Source: Geomicrobium halophilum
GTDB lineage: Bacteria; Bacillota; Bacilli; Bacillales; Marinococcaceae
Direction of reading: 5' to 3'
Assembly: GCF_014207655.1 (NCBI RefSeq)
Contig: NZ_JACHHJ010000001.1
Span: forward strand, 1,426,001-1,490,000
DNA length: 64,000 bases
This document shows positions 2,461 to 33,925 of the stretch, piece by piece; positions within the stretch are counted from its first letter, which is position 1; every line of letters begins with the position of its first letter. The position numbers were made by a program, and so were the translations under genes. The notes under the pieces were generated by a model. That model did not search any database. It saw only the letters and a list, made by a program, of their open reading frames with translations, and was not told the origin of the DNA.

Positions 2461-3228
2461 TTAAATGGCAGATGGAATTCTCGCGGAGTCATGATTACTC
2501 CTTACAAACTGAAGCAACTGCTGAATCTCTTCAGCATCTAAGAGTTCATGCCATGTTCCTTGACGAATAGCAAGAGCACGGCGAATGACCTCTGAATAAG
2601 GCCACTGTTTAAGGGCCCATTTTGTACCCCTTGTTTTGGATGTAAGCACACCTGTTTCTTTAAAACACCATGTACGACAAGCATTCATCACAGCTTCATG
2701 TCCATAAGGGTCATAATATGGATGAAAAATGTGACTGTTATGCCAACGCAATGACCCTTTCATCGCTTCTTCAAGCCAAGGTTTTGGAATACTGCCAAAT
2801 ACCTCTTCTTTTGCTCGGCCTGTCAGAGTCTTACCGGATTGTACGTTAATGGCAAAGTCCATCAATAATCCTTCGTCCATCTCTTCTTCTTTAACCTTGT
2901 CATCGATATCTTGACCAGTCAAAAGCGCAAATTCATATGAGAGTAGCGAATGTGGTTGTGCTGCTTCCTGTTCTAGTACCACGTAAAATTCCAAACCTGC
3001 TCCTGGTGAAGGCAACGTTTGATGAGATAGGTTTTTAGCAAGGGCCCTCTTCTCTGATTCCTTAAGTGGTCGTTTTACGATACAAAGCACATCGATATCG
3101 CTTATCTTCTCGTTAAAGTCACCGAGTACCGTCGAACCACACAAGTAAAGCCCAACCAAACGATCTTCCAATACAGAATTTACGACTTCCGTAAGTTGAT
3201 ACAAATAATCATCAATCTGGTCATCCAT
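2461..3228 (-). CDS. Nucleotidyltransferase, AadA/aminoglycoside adenylyltransferase-like
   Basis: 255 residues. The N-terminal Pol-beta-type nucleotidyltransferase signature is intact: GS at residues 31-32 followed by a DxD pair at 44 and 46 (STVLGDFNEKISDIDVL). The rest resembles the C-terminal DUF4111 domain of ANT(9)/ANT(3'') streptomycin-spectinomycin adenylyltransferases, with a TWCFKETGVLTSK segment and a KWAL helix. Many chromosomal homologues in Bacillaceae are not proven resistance determinants, so the substrate is open. The purine-rich GGGGGAAA upstream of the ATG is somewhat distant. It is a single gene with no obvious operon partner. Confidence 0.8.
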   Translation of the reverse strand: MDDQIDDYLYQLTEVVNSVLEDRLVGLYLCGSTVLGDFNEKISDIDVLCIVKRPLKESEKRALAKNLSHQTLPSPGAGLEFYVVLEQEAAQPHSLLSYEFALLTGQDIDDKVKEEEMDEGLLMDFAINVQSGKTLTGRAKEEVFGSIPKPWLEEAMKGSLRWHNSHIFHPYYDPYGHEAVMNACRTWCFKETGVLTSKTRGTKWALKQWPYSEVIRRALAIRQGTWHELLDAEEIQQLLQFVRSNHDSARIPSAI

Positions 3229-3936
3229 GATGAGCCATTTCCCCCATCCATTATTGATCTGATGAAAAATCTATATATTATTATATTAGCTGATTCATGC
3301 GAACGATGCAATGGGAGATACTTGGCATTTACATTTATATTGAGCACGTAAACATTGTCAGCCGCAGTGTCCTTACGATTTAAAATTTATTAGAAAACTT
3401 GGCTTTTCGCCAAGCTTTTATGGCAGAATCCTTACCTGCTAAAAAAAAGCAGGCAAATGCCTGCTCAAAATCCGTTCAATTTAGGAGGAATTTACCACAT
3501 GTCTCTTTGGTGCTGGAGGCTGGAGGTTTGATCACGTAAAGCTGACTTTTTCAAAACGGTTGATGGTAAGCTTTACACAATATCTTATGAATAAAATTTG
3601 CAGCCCTTGTAATGGATCAACCTATGTTAGAAAAACTTGGCTTATCCCTACGATAATGGAGTAGGAGACGGTGACTCTCAGACAGTGTCCCCAGAACATA
3701 TTCGTTAGTTTTCCGTGAATATGTTCTCCGTTCTTGAAACGCTCGCGTGTTGCAGATATTACGATGACGGATAATTGCTTTATCAATGATCTGTAACCAG
3801 CGGTTACCCGAGGAAATATAGAAACGTCATTTCTATTACTTAATGCACATACGTGCTCTCCATGACCTTCTTCATTTAATCTGTCTTCAGCTGACGACTA
3901 CATCGACTTCCTGACACACATAGGGTACAACTAGAA
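3229..3936. other. 708-bp intergenic stretch with hairpins and a 10-codon ORF
   Basis: No gene of normal size is supported. It holds repeat B copy 1 (3386-3417), a GCAGGC/GCCTGC hairpin (about 3449-3464), a strong TTTAGGAGGA site followed by an ATG and a ten-codon frame (3499-3531, MSLWCWRLEV), and a partial repeat-B copy near 3628-3650. The remainder, about 3660-3930, shows nothing recognisable. Confidence 0.5.
3386..3417. repeat. Repeat family B copy 1, terminator-shaped hairpin
   Basis: Hairpin AACTTGGC-TTTTC-GCCAAGCTT with flanking TTAGAAA and TTTTAT, essentially identical to the copy at 47178-47212 and similar to 3628-3650 and 30465-30509. The T-rich flank on each strand would let it act as an intrinsic terminator in either direction. 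The genes on its left (nucleotidyltransferase, minus) and right (Asp/Arg-run protein, minus) both read leftwards. Confidence 0.65.
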
Positions 3937-3963
3937 AAGTACGGGCGACACTCGCCCGTACTT
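3937..3963 (-). terminator. Intrinsic terminator of the Asp/Arg-run gene
   Basis: Eleven-base stem AAGTACGGGCG / CGCCCGTACTT with a five-base loop, followed on the minus strand by TTTTCTAG. It lies 20 bp past the stop codon of the 3983-4255 gene. Confidence 0.8.
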
Positions 3964-3982: not shown

Positions 3983-4255
3983 CTAATCGAAATAACATTT
4001 AAACCTTTTACGATCGTCATCATCATCTCTACGGCGACGACGGCGACGACGATCGGAACATCCACAATCGTGGTCGTCTCTGCGGCGCTTCCTTCTCCGA
4101 CCTCTCCGGCAATCTCGATCATCATCGTCGTCATCGTCATCATCATTTACAAAACGACACTTACACTCAATACGATCGAAATCAAAGTCATCATCATCAT
4201 CACGGCGACTGTAGAAATCAAACATCCGATCCCATTTTTCATAATAATAACCCAT
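3983..4255 (-). CDS. Low-complexity Asp-run/Arg-run protein, unknown function
   Basis: 90 residues, not recognised as a named family. It opens with an aromatic segment (MGYYYEKWDRMFDFYSRR), then alternates acidic and basic blocks: five Asp, an ECKC pair, nine consecutive Asp, an Arg/Lys block, DDHDCGC, eight consecutive Arg, five Asp and KRFKCYFD. Cys occurs as CKC, CGC and single residues. AAGGAGA lies upstream of the ATG and a clean terminator lies 20 bp past the stop, so it looks like a real monocistronic gene rather than a chance frame. Charge-segregated proteins with Tyr and Cys are common among Bacillales spore coat or crust components and among metal- or polymer-binding proteins; either role is inference. 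The GAT/GAC and CGA/CGT repeats make it prone to length variation. Confidence 0.72.
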   Translation of the reverse strand: MGYYYEKWDRMFDFYSRRDDDDDFDFDRIECKCRFVNDDDDDDDDDRDCRRGRRRKRRRDDHDCGCSDRRRRRRRRDDDDDRKRFKCYFD

Positions 4256-4479
4256 GTCAATCTCTCCTTTTCATATTAAAATCATCTTACACTAAATCAT
4301 ATGTAAAAAACGTACATGCTTGTAATGGAGGTACCTATGAAGCTATAAAAATCGTTATAAGTCTATTAATGGGATCGTTCTTTGAGCAAAGTTCACCCTC
4401 GATGGCTTTTCAGAAATGATTTCTTACATCTCCTCATATTCCAAGCATTTAATGCTTACATATAAGAGAGGTGATCCTC

Positions 4480-5250
4480 TTGAAAACGACACTCGATGCA
4501 TTTCTCAGTCAGCAACCAAATTGGGTTTTTTTTATTACCGGTCTCATAATTATCATTGGAGTAATCACCATCTTCATTTTAATTGGCCGTGCAGCGATTA
4601 AATATACGGAAAAAATTGATAAAGAGCTTGGGTTTCAAAAAATTCAGCAAGATCTGCACGAAACCAAATATCAAGCAGCTATTCACCAAGATATCTCCCT
4701 TCAAACGATTAATGCCCTTAGTAACGCCGAACGTTTTCTTGAACAACTTCAGCATGCCCGGATTGATTCGGTACAAGTAGAAGATAATCTAGAAACCTAT
4801 GAAAATTTAATGATTCGTGTCGTTAATGCTCTTAGTTCAGATATTAAGTTTCACCCTGGGGAACAGCATCGATGTGCGGTCTGGATTGAGGAATCTGACC
4901 AGCTTGTTTACTTTACTGGCAGCAATTCCTTTGATGGCCGTCATGAAGCTCGCGTTCTTTCTCTGAATGAAACCATCCCAGGCCGCTGCTTTCGTAAAAA
5001 AGAAACTCAACTCGTTCAGGATGTAAGTACTGATGTAGATGGCTCACCCCATAACGGATCTTATGGTGCCATCCTTTGCATTCCACTTTCGGAATGGGGC
5101 GTACTCACCGTTGATGCCCATCGTTCTTTTAAAGAAGAGGTCACGCATATCTGTCACCTTTATGCCCGATTTGTCGATCTCGCATTCTTTGAATATAGTC
5201 AAATGCTTGATGACGGCTACTTTGATCAACATTTCCGGGAAGGAGAATAA
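4480..5250 (+). CDS. Membrane-anchored coiled-coil protein with GAF-like domain
   Basis: 256 residues from TTG 4480, chosen because GAGGTGA sits five bases upstream; the in-frame GTG at 4471 lies inside that site. One transmembrane helix (about residues 15-38, FFITGLIIIIGVITIFILIG), a helical linker to about 100, then an alpha/beta region ending EWGVLTVDAHRSF...LYARFVDLAFFEYSQ that resembles a GAF sensor domain; AILCIPL and LTVD are typical GAF strands. It has no kinase or output domain, so a partner would be needed for signalling. The small basic gene at 5274 follows by 23 bp and shares its terminator. Confidence 0.72.
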   Translation: MKTTLDAFLSQQPNWVFFITGLIIIIGVITIFILIGRAAIKYTEKIDKELGFQKIQQDLHETKYQAAIHQDISLQTINALSNAERFLEQLQHARIDSVQVEDNLETYENLMIRVVNALSSDIKFHPGEQHRCAVWIEESDQLVYFTGSNSFDGRHEARVLSLNETIPGRCFRKKETQLVQDVSTDVDGSPHNGSYGAILCIPLSEWGVLTVDAHRSFKEEVTHICHLYARFVDLAFFEYSQMLDDGYFDQHFREGE

Positions 5251-5273
5251 ACTACAAATGGGAGGGGATGAAA

Positions 5274-5450
5274 ATGAGGGGGAAAGAAACCTTAAGAAAA
5301 GCTGCGGCAAAATCAGCTAAAAAACGTGGCATTCTTTCTAATCGAAACTACGAGCAATGGCTGAAAAACCAAACTAACCCTCATGTTGCCGGAGCAAAAC
5401 AAACAAATGTCGCCTCACGTGCCAAGAAAGCACTTTTAAAACGGGCGTGA
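5274..5450 (+). CDS. Small basic protein, unknown function
   Basis: 58 residues, strongly basic (KTL/KK/RAKKALLKRA), no Cys, no membrane segment. ATG at 5274 has GGAGG eight bases upstream; the ATG at 5268 is too close to it. It is co-directional with the GAF gene (23-bp gap) and followed 11 bp later by a bidirectional terminator, so the two probably form an operon. No family recognised; nucleic-acid or ribosome binding is a guess from charge only. Confidence 0.6.
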   Translation: MRGKETLRKAAAKSAKKRGILSNRNYEQWLKNQTNPHVAGAKQTNVASRAKKALLKRA

Positions 5451-6125: not shown

Positions 6126-6309
6126 CGTATATGCGTCCTCCCGTTCTTCGGTCCACAAAAAGAACGAAAACGCAGAGCCTGCCCTATCACCATACAAATA
6201 CCCCTAAGCAAGCGCTCAGGGGCATAGTTAACGAAGGGAATCCTGCATAGGAAATTAAACATCCCCATGCCATTGACGTCGATCCGTCAATACGGAATAT
6301 TCTCTGCAA

Positions 6310-6437
6310 TCTTCTCCCATCCAGACTTTACTGTCGGTTCCGGAATCACACCAGATCCACCGCTCGCGCGGGTCACGGACTCGTCGTCATTTTGGACGCA
6401 TCACCGTCGGTCGGGAATTTCACCCTGCCCCGAAGAT
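6310..6437 (-). promoter_or_regulatory. FMN riboswitch (RFN element)
   Basis: On the minus strand this stretch carries conserved RFN blocks in order: TTCGGGGCAGGGTGAAAT, CCGACCGACGGT, GTCCGTGACCCG, GGTGGATCTGGTG and CCGACAGTAAAGTCTGGATG. FMN binding would lower ribU expression. A CCCCTGAGCG-type hairpin at about 6203-6225 lies between aptamer and gene and may be part of the expression platform, though its T-run is poor. Confidence 0.95.
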
Positions 6438-6549
6438 TATAATATAATTTTTACGATCTGTATTGGCACCAATACTTTAAGATCTTTAACGTATAATACC
6501 ATCTTGTATGAATAAACGCAAGGTATAATGTTGATTTTTGTTATTAAAA

Positions 6550-7171: not shown

Positions 7172-7335
7172 GGTTCAACATCTCCTTCAGTAACCTGTAA
7201 TTATTCGGGGGAGTGAAAGTTATTCTTAAATGATCGATAATAGCAGATCACTTCGTGGGGAGACACGTCCTTTTTGTATCATTGTCCTCTCTTTTAATGA
7301 TATACTATAGGAAAGAAGTGCAAGGAGGACCATCC

Positions 7336-7659
7336 ATGGAGGAAATCAATCCATCCATTTCACCTCAGCCTGAAAAAAAACCGGCGCACCCCCATTCACC
7401 TGCTGAGAAAGAGCGTATCCAAAATCGTCTGCGCAGGGTTGAAGGACAGATTCGTGGTTTACAGCAAATGGTAGAAGATGATCGTTATTGTGTTGATATT
7501 CTTGTCCAGATCACGGCTGTCCAGTCGGCTTTGAAAAAGGTCGGCTATTCGTTGCTTGAACACCATGCCAAAACGTGCGTCGTCCATGATGTTAAAAATG
7601 GAAAAGAAGACGAAAGCATAGAAGAACTCCTAAAGGTTATTCAGCAATATGCAAAATAG
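7336..7659 (+). CDS. csoR: Copper-sensing transcriptional repressor CsoR
   Basis: 107 residues, all-helical CsoR/RcnR family. The Cu(I) ligands are visible as C52, H77 and C81, with the 25- and 4-residue spacing of B. subtilis CsoR (C45/H70/C74). Start ATG 7336 follows AAGGAGGACC. It releases operators when copper binds, derepressing copA and copZ; palindromes fitting a CsoR site lie in the copA promoter (10261-10277) and upstream of the Cys-rich copper protein gene (10969-10985). It is convergent with the copA unit, sharing the terminator region at 7662-7690. Confidence 0.95.
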   Translation: MEEINPSISPQPEKKPAHPHSPAEKERIQNRLRRVEGQIRGLQQMVEDDRYCVDILVQITAVQSALKKVGYSLLEHHAKTCVVHDVKNGKEDESIEELLKVIQQYAK

Positions 7660-7661
7660 AG

Positions 7662-7690
7662 AAAAACTGCCATAACGGCAGCTTTTCTTT
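7662..7690 (+). terminator. Terminator between csoR and the copA unit
   Basis: Stem AAAA-CTGCC / GGCAG-CTTTT followed by CTTTC on the + strand; the reverse strand also reads a T-rich tail. The minus-strand microprotein stop codon begins at the next base. Confidence 0.75.
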
Positions 7691-7789
7691 CTACATGATC
7701 CCTGTAAAGCTGTAATAACCGATAATAACAAGCGCAAGATAAACAACAGCTGTGCCTGCCCACGTCATTACTCGTTTTGATTGTAGCAT
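7691..7789 (-). CDS. 32-residue single-pass membrane microprotein downstream of copA
   Basis: The frame from ATG 7789 reads MLQSKRVMTWAGTAVV then YLALVIIGYYSFTGIM and stops at TAG 7691. One hydrophobic helix covers about residues 9-28. GGGGAGG inside the copA 3' end lies about nine bases upstream, and the ATG is four bases past the copA stop, so translation is probably coupled. The frame ends exactly at the terminator. No family recognised; a copper-ATPase-associated small subunit or regulator is inference from position. Confidence 0.68.
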   Translation of the reverse strand: MLQSKRVMTWAGTAVVYLALVIIGYYSFTGIM

Positions 7790-7793
7790 CGAA

Positions 7794-10220
7794 CTATGCC
7801 TCCCCTATTTCACTAACGTTCATTTTCTGTAAGCGTAAAGCATTAGTGACAACGGATAAGGAGCTAAAAGCCATTGCAGCACCAGCCACCCATGGGGCTA
7901 ATAAACCGACAGCCGCAAAGGGGATCGCTGCTGTATTATAAACAAAGGCGAAGAACAGGTTTTGCTTAATGTTTCGCATCGTTTTTTGACTCATAAGCAC
8001 AGCATCTGCCACGCTGTTTAAATCTCCGCGCATTAACGTAATATCCGCCGCTTCAATAGCTACGTCAGTACCTGTTCCAATCGCCATACCTATATCAGCC
8101 GTAGCAAGGGCGGGCGCATCATTAATGCCATCTCCGACCATCGCTACTTTCTTGCCGTGACCTTGAAGCTTTTGAACTTCAGCTCCCTTTTCTTCCGGTA
8201 TCACTTCAGCAAGTACATGTTTAATCCCCACTTCACTGGCAATCGCTTCCGCTGTTTTCTGGTTATCTCCGGTCATCATTAGTACTTCCATACCGTTCTT
8301 TTGCAGACGTTGAATGGCACGGGCAGAGGTTTCTTTTACCGTATCTGCCACAGCGAGTACGCCCGCGTACACCCTATCAATGGCCACAAGCATAGCCGTT
8401 TTACCTTCGCTCTCCCATTTCTCTTTACGATCAAGAGCTACGGAAACTTCAATGTTATTATTGGTAAGAAATTGCTGCGTCCCGATCAGAATTTCCCGGC
8501 CCTTGACATGGGCTCGAATACCCTTACCAGGTACCGCTTCAAATGTTTCAGCATTCGGAACCGGAATCCCTTTCGCAGTAACACCATCGACAAGTGCTCG
8601 CGCCAATGGATGCTCAGATTGATTTTCAGCTGCGGCTACCAGAGATAAAAACGTATACTCATCTAACTGTTCAGCGTATACGTTTGTCAACGCTGGCTTG
8701 CCTTCTGTGATCGTTCCGGTTTTATCAAGGACGATAGTGTCCACATTTTGGGCGCTTTCCAAATATTCCCCTCCTTTGAAGAGAACCCCGATTTCTGCAG
8801 ATCGACCCGACCCTGCCATAATTGACGTTGGTGTTGCCAAGCCAAGTGCGCACGGACATGCAATAACGAGAATCGATATCGTTGGAATAAGTGCACTGCC
8901 AAGCTCCCCTGGGGTCACCAAGAAATACCAAGTGAGGAATGTAAGTGCTGCAAACACGATCACAATTGGAACAAATACGCTGGATACTTTATCAACAGAA
9001 CGTTGAATGTGCGCTTTTGACCCCTGAGCATCTTCTACGACTTTAACAATTTGTGCCAACGCCGTTTCCTTTCCAACTTTTGTTGCTTTCATTATGATGG
9101 ATCCGTTTTTATTAAGGGTGGCCCCAGTAACAGTGTCACCGATTTGTTTATCAATCGGCACACCCTCTCCGGTCAGCATGGATTCATCAACGGCAGAACT
9201 TCCTTCAACAATCTCACCATCCACCGGTATCTTTTCGCCTGGCCTTACTCGAATATGATCATCTACTTTGACATCTTCAATAGCGACTTCTATTTCTTTA
9301 CCACCGCGAAGCACGGTCGCAGTTTTCGCTTGCAAGTTTAGGAGTTTATTTATCGCTTGCGAAGTCCGGCCTTTGGCCCGGGCTTCAAACAGTTTTCCTA
9401 ACACGATCAAGGTAATAATAATCGCCGCTGTTTCAAAATATAAATCGGCCATCGCTTCTCCTGAAGCCATCCATTCAATACCAAGATAAATGCTATAAAA
9501 ATAAGCAGCAGACGTTCCAAGTGCCACGAGTACATCCATATTCGCACTTTTATTGAGTAATGCTTTATATGCACCCCGATAAAATTGCCAGCCGACCACA
9601 AATTGGACCGGTGTTGCGAGCGCGAGTTGCACCCATGGATTCATGAAAAGTTCGGGGATCCATATCCATTGGGTAAATTCAAAATGTGTGACCATACTCC
9701 AAAGGAGTGGGAGAGTAAGAATACTTGAGAAAATGAACTTTCCGGTTTGTTGTTCAACTGCTTTGTCTTTTTCTTCTTCAGCCGTTGAACGATCCGTTTT
9801 TTCATAAAGTTGGTAACCTATTTGATCGATGGCTGACTCCATATCAGAGATGGATACTGCATTGTGGTCATATGTCACCGTTGCCGTTTCCAGGGCAAAG
9901 TTCACATTCGCCTCACTGACACCGGAAAGGCGATTGAGTTTCTTTTCCACCCGGTTTGCACAAGCGGCACAAGTCATTCCGCTCACAGCAAATTCTCCTT
10001 TATCATGAACGACATGATATCCCAAGGATTCAATTTTTTCTTCAAATTGGGAGACATCGGTAACCTCTGGATCATAACTGACCCGGGTCTTTTCAGAAGC
10101 AAGGTTGACATTGGCATCTTCAACGCCTTCCATCTTCTTTAGACCCTTTTCAATACGAACAGCACAAGCCGCACAAGTCATCCCAGAAATTTGCAAGCTT
10201 GCTTCATCCTGCTTGCTCAT
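7794..10220 (-). CDS. copA: Copper-exporting P1B-type ATPase CopA
   Basis: 808 residues from ATG 10220 (GGAGG six bases upstream; the adjacent ATG 10223 is too close). Two N-terminal heavy-metal domains with CAAC ligands at residues 16-19 and 84-87, eight membrane helices, the Cu(I) channel motif CPCALG, phosphorylation motif DKTGTITEG, the SEHPLARAL segment of the nucleotide domain, [14 protein letters not shown], and a C-terminal [10 protein letters not shown]...NALRL helix pair. It pumps cytosolic Cu(I) out. Its own promoter carries a CsoR-like palindrome; copZ, its likely copper donor, is transcribed separately upstream on the same strand. Confidence 0.97.
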
Positions 10221-10252
10221 CATCTCCCTCCTTCCTATGATTTTCTACTTCC

Positions 10253-10281
10253 ATTATATTATACCCATAAGGGGTATTCAA
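10253..10281 (-). promoter_or_regulatory. copA promoter with CsoR-like operator
   Basis: Minus strand TTGAAT (10276-10281), 17-bp spacer, TATAAT (10253-10258). The spacer is occupied by the palindrome ATACCCCTTATGGGTAT (10261-10277), matching the TACCC-N-GGGTA form of CsoR operators, so bound repressor would block RNA polymerase. Confidence 0.82.
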
Positions 10282-10310
10282 GCATTTAGATTCATGATCT
10301 ACCCATTAAA

Positions 10311-10340
10311 AAAGGAAGATCCCTAAAAAGGGCCTTCCTC
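10311..10340 (-). terminator. copZ terminator
   Basis: GGAAG and GGG arms pair across an A-rich loop, and on the minus strand the stem is followed by TTTTTTAA. It separates copZ from the copA promoter. Confidence 0.75.
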
Positions 10341-10352
10341 TTCTTTCAGTAG

Positions 10353-10559
10353 TTACACAACATCATATCCTTGATCTTCAATGGTTTCTACAATTTCTTC
10401 ATGCGTTACACCGCTTTGATCGTACTTCACCATGACCGTTCCTTGGTCAAGGTTTACCGTTACTTCAGAAACACCGTTCAATTCACCGACATTTCCTTCA
10501 ACAGCGGAAACGCAATGGGCACATGACATCCCTTTTACATTTATAGTCTCTTGTTCCAA
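10353..10559 (-). CDS. copZ: Copper chaperone CopZ
   Basis: 68-residue ferredoxin-like HMA domain that carries Cu(I) to CopA. The metal site is MSCAHC with Cys 13 and 16. The start is TTG 10559: GGAGGTGA lies five bases upstream, and the resulting N-terminus (MEQETINVKGMSC) aligns with B. subtilis CopZ, whereas the ATG further up precedes the ribosome site. It follows the Cys-rich copper protein gene by 63 bp, so both probably use the promoter near 10970. Confidence 0.95.
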   Translation of the reverse strand: MEQETINVKGMSCAHCVSAVEGNVGELNGVSEVTVNLDQGTVMVKYDQSGVTHEEIVETIEDQGYDVV

Positions 10560-10622
10560 TAGAGTCACCTCCATGTCCACTATTATACCGCTATTAAGAG
10601 AAAATCGTTAAGGATCCGCTCA

Positions 10623-10946
10623 TTAGACAGCCATTTTTCTACACATCTCAGCACATTCGCGACATGCTTCTGCACACTGTTGACAATGCTCTTCCTCATG
10701 TTTTTCACATTCTTTCGCACATGCTTCACAAATCTCCGCACAAAGAGAGCAAGTTTGCTCTGCGAACGGACTATTTCTTGATAGCGCATTCGCAGTGTAT
10801 GCACAAATCTCAGCACATTCACGATCGATCCGAATGCATTCTGCCATATGCCCAACATGTTCCTCTTGCAAACACGCATCAAAACAACGGTTACAAGCCT
10901 GCATACATTCTAGACAAGCATCGATACATTCTTGATAGGTATTCAT
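10623..10946 (-). CDS. Four-helix-bundle copper-binding protein (DUF326/Csp-type)
   Basis: 107 residues with about 20 Cys, arranged CxxxC/CxxC along amphipathic helices (ECIDACLECMQACNRC, CSLCAEICEACAKECEKH, CQQCAEACRECAEMC). Such Cys-lined four-helix bundles (Csp family) store many Cu(I) ions. No signal peptide, so cytosolic like Csp3. A CsoR-like palindrome lies 23 bp upstream of the start codon and copZ follows, consistent with copper buffering in the CsoR regulon. Confidence 0.9.
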   Translation of the reverse strand: MNTYQECIDACLECMQACNRCFDACLQEEHVGHMAECIRIDRECAEICAYTANALSRNSPFAEQTCSLCAEICEACAKECEKHEEEHCQQCAEACRECAEMCRKMAV

Positions 10947-29562: not shown

Positions 29563-29587
29563 ATGAATGTCTGTCTAGCGACTTCAA

Positions 29588-29773
29588 GAAGCCCCGTTGT
29601 GCCGTAAGTAATCACCAAGTTTTTCAAGCCTGCAATGGCAGGTGGGTGCCCTGTTCAACATTCCGTAAGTCCTTCGAACACGAGGCATTTACTTCCAGTT
29701 GAAACGTCAGGCTCCCTATCAAAAAGTGTTGGCTTTAAAACGTATAGTGGTATACGCACACTACAGGACTTCT
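29588..29773 (-). ncRNA. bsrA: 6S RNA (6S-1/BsrA type)
   Basis: The minus strand reads AAGTCCTGTAGTGTGCG at the 5' end, CAACACTTTTTGATAGGGAG, then ACGGAATGTTGAACAGGGC followed by ACCCACCTGCC, and CGGCACAACGGGGCTT at the 3' end. The two ends pair over about 14 positions to form the closing stem. These blocks match B. subtilis 6S-1 RNA, which is also near aspS. It sequesters sigma-A RNA polymerase in stationary phase and serves as a template for pRNA. Confidence 0.92.
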
Positions 29774-33644: not shown

Positions 33645-33925
33645 ACTAAAAAATCCCTCTGAACGAAACTCAGAGGGACGAGCGTACGCCCGCGGTGCCA
33701 CCCACATTGAAGTGATCTTTTTCGATCACTTCCGCTTACGACAGTTAACGCCTGTGTAACGTTTCGATCTAATGGCCGGGAGGCATTGGCAATGCAGCGT
33801 CCTACGTTCAATCGAAAACCTACGAAGTGTTTTTCCGCGAGATTGTACAGAAGGGCTCACAGCCACGGCGCCTTCCTCTCTGACTACAATGGGTCACGTA
33901 CTTTTCTTCATCCACGGTCTAATTT
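33645..33925 (-). promoter_or_regulatory. T-box riboswitch upstream of hisS-aspS
   Basis: The T-box sequence TGGGTGGCACCGCGGGC lies at about 33688-33704, the terminator (AAAAAATCCCTCTGA arm) at 33648-33680. Stem I shows AUGAAG/CUUCGU, an AGUA S-turn strand (33899-33902) opposite the loop GAAAAACA (33828-33835), and CGUGA/UCGCG above. Within that loop the register GAAA-AAC-A gives an Asn codon, while CAC (33827-33829) would be His, the codon expected from hisS. Uncharged cognate tRNA stabilises the antiterminator. Confidence 0.93.

Follow-up and report, generated by a model that had tools for sequence, protein, structure and literature searches.

The window, a stretch of 64,000 nucleotides of Geomicrobium halophilum DNA, contains an odd Asp- and Arg-rich open reading frame that is a genuine conserved gene of salt-loving spore formers. 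On sequence grounds, it belongs to a hitherto unnamed family of proteins from halophilic spore-forming Bacillales that are small (61–90 residues), highly charged and rich in cysteine. With a probability that we put a little above even, the gene would belong to a late mother-cell family of the spore-coat type, read from a sigma-K-type promoter, the product of which acts as a disordered glue of balanced charge that cysteines hold in place. The parts of this reading differ in strength: late-sporulation expression is likely, a place for the product in the spore coat is rather probable, and the glue picture is tentative. A small coat building block is the most likely identity because the control region looks like those of late spore-making genes.

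The gene and its immediate expression signals were delimited as follows.

3983–4255, minus strand: coding sequence of the Cys-rich protein with Asp and Arg runs, 90 residues (from the open reading frame list, homology, codon-position changes and composition)
4263–4269, minus strand: ribosome binding site AAGGAGA, 7 nt 5' of the ATG (from the sequence and its relatives)
3930–3963, minus strand: intrinsic terminator, a hairpin with a T-rich tail 19 nt 3' of the stop codon (from the sequence and folding)

The protein has an aromatic N-terminus (MGYYYEKWD), Asp runs of 5, 9 and 5 residues, a basic RRRKRRR block, an Arg run of 8, and six cysteines that include two CxC pairs (CKC and CGC). Among the 145 ATG-initiated open reading frames of at least 60 residues in the window it is the only one with such runs or with more than 50% Asp, Glu, Lys and Arg, and none of 1780 simulated open reading frames was more than 50% charged. 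The codons of the runs are mixed (GAT and GAC; CGT, CGC and AGA) and do not form a single pure triplet repeat; the tandem arrays in the gene are only short, of triplets or nonamers, with a best score of 45. The terminator hairpin (AAGTACGGGCGA-GTG-TCGCCCGTACTT) was absent from the list produced by a simple terminator scan, and the segment folds at -22.2 kcal/mol, beating all of 200 shuffles (z -4.68). An earlier note on this DNA had described the frame, its Asp runs, Arg blocks and Cys pairs and its aromatic N-terminus without naming a strand, and had argued for expression from the AAGGAGA motif and a dedicated terminator. These elements are all present on the minus strand, and the gene is real and looks expressed. 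The plus-strand frame across 3983–4255 is open, yet we rejected it because the third positions of the minus frame change most and because the start, ribosome site and terminator suit the minus strand.

Nine further genomes from this taxonomic family have a counterpart at the same locus (one decayed, one frameshifted and one short). A first protein search of 61 genomes gave its clearest matches beyond the G. halophilum genome in G003, G016 and G022. Of these, G003 is Natribacillus halophilus DSM 21771, the NCBI taxonomy of which suits the earlier note's expectation of relatives in the Bacillaceae; G016 and G022, together with G009 and G026, belong to one genus, which we take to be Salicibibacter. 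In all five relatives the small gene lies divergent from a membrane-protein gene with weak GAF similarity and adjoins an AadA-like nucleotidyltransferase gene. The corresponding neighbours in the window are given below.

4471–5250, plus strand: divergent membrane protein with weak GAF similarity (under Pfam cut-offs), starting at GTG 4471 or TTG 4480
2461–3228, minus strand: AadA-like nucleotidyltransferase (over Pfam cut-offs), which serves as a locus marker in relatives

The nucleotidyltransferase is far below the NCBIfam cut-offs for resistance genes (60.4 against 193 bits), and there are no known coat genes among the neighbours. Close orthologues of the GAF-like gene (E below 1e-80) are present in 7 of 29 genomes of the taxonomic family, G. 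halophilum included, and in each of the seven the small gene or a remnant of it lies divergent to that gene. In the seventh, G025, the member was found by its place, having been overlooked by the first profile. A six-row profile gave full-length, stop-free matches in G021 (E 1.4), G015 (E 6.5) and G006 (E 8.6) that are insignificant alone. The members in these three genomes adjoin the same nucleotidyltransferase gene, and those of G006 and G015 score E 1.2e-4 with a profile of paralogues, which at E 5 did not report the G021 member. Relatives carry a ribosome site of the AAAGGGGA or AAAGGAGA type at the position matching that of the window gene, and terminators were found 3' of the orthologues. 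All seven genomes with the GAF-like gene also encode, directly 3' of it, a small basic protein of 56–60 residues (5268–5450, plus strand, in the window) that has no Pfam match and an NCBIfam match below cut-off.

The family is under purifying selection. In each of ten codon-aligned pairs, changes are most numerous at third codon positions, which account for 47–61% of them (21, 21 and 41 changes at the three positions in the G000–G003 pair), counts that carry some bias toward the minus frame because the pairs were aligned as minus-frame proteins. The ratio dN/dS is 0.12–0.35 in the seven pairs with computable dS (three of the ten were not computable) and about 0.30 for G000–G003. The orthologues of G003 and G022 are full length, that of G016 has a frameshift close to its end (73 residues), that of G009 is short, with a stop at 65 residues, and that of G026 is decayed. 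Because copies have decayed there, the gene may be dispensable in some relatives. The earlier note held that stops or out-of-frame changes in close relatives would count against a functional gene. Such damage was found in one genus, as one decayed, one frameshifted and one short copy, but the frame is intact in the fourth copy of that genus and in five further genomes.

Upstream of the gene, a six-locus alignment revealed a near-invariant DNA block about 45–85 nt 5' of the ATG. Two control boxes, and a hairpin that follows the second, were located in the window.

4295–4337, minus strand: control box comprising TAGGT (4333–4337, GerE-like core), AC (4322–4323), 18 nt and CATATGATT (4295–4303, sigma-K-like -10), from alignment and pattern searches
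3581–3624, minus strand: second control box (TAGGT-N9-AC-N19-CATAAGATA) with no notable open reading frame behind it, from a pattern search
3447–3466, minus strand: terminator-like hairpin with a T run, after the second box, from a terminator scan and folding

All 17 members, which comprise seven paralogues and ten orthologous loci (one with a decayed gene), carry the pattern TAGGT-N9-AC-N18/19-CATA. Five of them were found by the motif and are excluded as a test; the other 12 form about four diverged groups whose relatives are not independent of one another. Its geometry is fixed: TAGGT starts exactly 14 nt before AC in every member, and the spacer from AC to CATA is 18 nt in 14 members and 19 nt in G021, G015 and G006. 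No site was found in the other loci examined, 346,740 bases in total, which partly overlap and from which family loci were removed by hand, and simulated sequence yields about 0.1 site per 64 kb, counting both strands. When searched in 29 genomes with up to two mismatches, the 17-base pattern occurs at 48 places, against 20 for the reversed pattern. All eight zero-mismatch places precede a family member or a decayed copy, as do four of the seven one-mismatch places; among the 33 two-mismatch places, 11 were read and none precedes a family gene. One of the two-mismatch places, L115, has CATAAAGTA and no family reading frame behind it. No wider regulon emerged in the G. halophilum genome, where the window site was alone in the first pattern search and other sites numbered two at three mismatches and three at two mismatches; the two-mismatch sites L105 and L119 were read and are not family genes.

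By comparison of motifs, the box looks like a promoter for sigma-K accompanied by a GerE-like element. The sigma-K -10 element is CATANNNTA, and the core of the GerE consensus is TRGGY, a consensus that we did not find in print. The full CATANNNTA, as part of CATAAAGTA, occurs in five of seven paralogues and at none of the ten orthologous loci, all of which lack its last A (nine have T and G016 has G). Readings as sigma-A, sigma-E or sigma-G promoters fit worse when compared by eye with the respective consensus sequences. For sigma-K promoters, PMC517825 gives element lengths and a gap of 14–16 nt. According to a passage of PMC4750369, SigK-dependent bclB has CATATAATT and bclA has CAC-N16-CATATGTTA, so that the family spacer of 18–19 nt is two or three nt longer than the 16 given there. 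PMC5595907 describes GerE as needed for transcription of outer-coat genes in B. subtilis. In the G. halophilum genome, SpoIVA is over its cut-off, and a gene for a small PF00196 protein next to an sdhB-like gene was read as gerE. All ten member-bearing genomes are positive for spoIVA, which is weak evidence because 23 of the 29 genomes are positive; no member was detected in the thirteen other spoIVA-positive genomes.

The same region could belong to a gene that is linked to sporulation but is read by another sigma factor, or the product of which acts outside the coat (in the mother-cell cytoplasm, cortex or forespore), the box then serving a different regulator. The orthologues' -10 does fall short of a full sigma-K match, the spacer is long, and the divergent neighbour is a membrane protein and not a coat gene. 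We nevertheless consider this explanation improbable, given that five paralogues have the complete CATANNNTA at the same place and that the other sigma factors give the poorer fits. Of the four roles that the earlier note had proposed, spore layers is the best, given an upstream region that is conserved and resembles promoters active late in sporulation. Its scaffolds for minerals, polyphosphate or nucleic acid are unsupported, and the evidence speaks neither for nor against them.

The second box and the hairpin after it are separated by about 110 nt free of notable open reading frames (3440–3624, minus strand), and the sequence of the hairpin is close to that of the terminator that follows the orthologue in G009, G022 and G026. 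This second box is likely to be either what remains of another family gene or the promoter of a short RNA. A CCTCC-type motif is conserved between gene and terminator at the orthologue loci L003, L004, L017 and L018 and lies at about 3470–3510 in the window; on the other strand it reads as a strong ribosome site, with a short ATG-initiated frame following it.

The family extends beyond the locus. An unlinked G022 paralogue (L074) was found with the six-row profile (E 3.6e-4), and the promoter pattern found five more, one in G003 and two each in G009 and G026, with one of the G009 proteins identical to one of the G026 proteins. Searching with a profile built from five paralogues, of which the motif had supplied four, led to a further but weak G022 copy, L163 (E 0.023), and to a broken G022 copy. 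Five of the weak matches to this profile were read: two are pieces of the one broken copy, one is L163 and two are chance. The same profile search found no paralogue in the G. halophilum genome. Members share a frame in which a WD close to the N-terminus is followed by CxC, CGC and a hydrophobic strand at the C-terminus, except that L163 is without the WD start and that the strand is lost in G016 and G009; G021, G015 and G006 align CGC where other members have the first CxC. Mean column identity is 36% in a twelve-member alignment, and linkage of the group therefore rests also on the common promoter and, for orthologues, on position. In G021, G015, G006 and G025 the family gene is followed by another gene for a small Cys-rich protein (MGKSRHHWNGCSC... 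or MNQSRHYWTGCSC...; L070 1784–2032, L037 2814–3032), the hydrophobic C-terminal end of which is similar to the family's.

Across the order, two profile searches yielded no convincing match beyond the family's own members. The first search of 397 genomes matched 9, comprising two members and seven weak matches (E 5e-4 to 0.047; stops in five of the seven). A second search of 397 genomes matched 38, comprising three members (G003, G006 and G015) and 35 weak matches (E 0.005 to 0.49), of which nine were read and none is a member. Because the first profile overlooked the members in G025, G021, G015 and G006, absence of the family elsewhere is unproven. The window protein and the twelve members scanned stay below the cut-offs of all Pfam and NCBIfam models, and a five-row orthologue profile (A3) gave no PDB match at E 1. 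Among the papers listed for the two genus names no title concerns the family, which has no searchable name. A low-complexity reading frame that is easily dismissed as noise turns out to belong to a multi-gene family with a recognizable control element. Protein searches in halophilic spore formers are weakened by low complexity, and the box TAGGT-N9-AC-N18-CATA, which found five family genes without a protein query, may find more there.

Net charge (Lys and Arg against Asp and Glu) is -3 to +3 in 12 of 13 scored members, with 37–67% of residues charged, and +10 in L163 (G022_p2). The scored set omits the decayed G026 gene, one paralogue whose protein is identical to a scored one, and G015 and G006, both nearly the same as G021; members are related, and we therefore attach no probability to the count. 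The window protein has a net charge of -2, with 60 of its 90 residues charged. Its charges are segregated into blocks to a degree reached by none of 2000 shuffles, the corresponding numbers being 32 and 47 of 2000 for G003 and G022. The earlier note's description of the protein as charge-segregated is thus strongly borne out in the window genome and modestly in two orthologues, but does not extend to the other ten members, in which segregation is not significant. Charge balance is the commoner family trait, and the long runs are a local exaggeration, because segregation is clear in the window protein alone.

In relatives, Glu replaces Asp and more Lys or His replaces Arg, the long Asp and Arg runs being specific to the window lineage. 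Together with the decay in G026, the frameshift in G016, the short G009 form and the adjoining promoter-like relic without a gene, this specificity could mean that function is being lost in the window lineage, with runs grown by slippage and little constraint left. We regard such a loss as very unlikely. The frame, start, ribosome site, promoter and terminator of the window gene are intact, the net charge is close to zero despite so many charged residues, the run codons are mixed and the G000–G003 dN/dS is as low as stated above.

CxC and CGC are retained in the six best-aligned orthologues, and the G003, G016, G022 and G009 copies have CGCxxC and 5–11 His. A small protein that binds or buffers Zn, Cu or a similar metal, and that is possibly spore-associated too, would find its ligands in CxC, CGCxxC and His runs, with the acidic blocks as a low-affinity sink. 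The CxC ... CxCxxC spacing in the copies from these four genomes is like that of the zinc fold of GFA, or S-(hydroxymethyl)glutathione synthase, one member matches the GFA zinc-enzyme family over that stretch, and 3–7 kb from the gene is a cluster of copper genes that includes one for a DUF326 protein of the copper-storage type. However, the Pfam match is below cut-off (15.6 against 24.3 bits, E 0.017) and concerns one of 12 members, and family members are without the rest of the enzyme. The window protein itself has one His and is missing the final Cys of CGCxxC, and no metal-regulator box was recognized upstream. We judge this metal-binding explanation unlikely.

Several known coat proteins bear on the coat reading. 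CotC has an MGYY start and a high content of Tyr, Lys and Asp, and it is not known to have CxC pairs or Arg runs. The window protein is small, like CotC and CotU, and its start resembles that of CotC; DYDYDYD stretches occur in four relatives. The coat and exosporium proteins CotY, CotZ and ExsY are Cys-rich, as the family is, and they are larger and hydrophobic, with a charge unlike the family's. Family members gave no match to coat families in Pfam or NCBIfam. Assembly data for CotC and CotU of B. subtilis are given in a section of PMC3785510, and a passage of PMC4750369 describes ExsY as sigma-K-controlled and as a homologue of the Cys-rich CotY and CotZ. CotG and CotG-like coat proteins are described, in an excerpt of PMC9765600, as low-complexity, highly charged, disordered and made during sporulation, with little shared primary sequence. 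The window family is likewise low-complexity and highly charged, its members share little primary sequence, and they are probably disordered and made during sporulation. Unlike CotG (47% Lys, Arg and His, 6% Asp and Glu, central tandem repeats), the window protein is near-equal in acid and base and has CxC pairs, and it shows neither such a repeat module nor the mostly positive charge that define CotG-like proteins. Provided that the coat assignment holds, the family would be like CotG- or CotC-type coat proteins in kind. AlphaFold models are of low confidence (mean pLDDT 50.8 and 38.5), which fits disorder and proves nothing.

If the coat reading is correct, transcription would occur in the mother cell during late sporulation, driven by the sigma-K-type promoter with its GerE-like box, and the product would be built into the spore coat or crust. 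Acidic and basic stretches would attract one another and other coat proteins, causing the chains to condense at the spore surface, where disulfides or bound metal at the CxC and CGC pairs could then fix the layer. A more far-reaching proposal, which we put forward as speculative and rather unlikely, is that the members are polyampholytes of the spore surface, selected for net charge and Cys spacing over residue identity, so that Asp and Glu, or Arg and Lys or His, may be swapped while acid equals base. The window member would then be an extreme block form, self-condensing (coacervate-like) and cross-linked through CxC, that adapts coat assembly to salt. The family offers a natural test of how far charge balance without fixed sequence suffices for coat-protein assembly.

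Some further features of the window are recorded here. The copper cluster spans 7255–10946 (CsoR-, CopA- and CopZ-like by reading of the open reading frames) and includes the Cys-rich DUF326 protein at 10623–10946, which matches the Csp1 copper-storage model below cut-off. A repeated intergenic hairpin, TTAGAAAACTTGGCTTTTCGCCAAGCTTTTAT, occurs on the plus strand at 3390 and 47183 and in L017 at about 357–391, with a partial copy at 3627, and from its sequence looks like a dispersed palindromic element. On the minus strand, Rfam models place an FMN riboswitch at 6305–6441, a 6S RNA at 29587–29772 and a T-box leader at 33671–33923.
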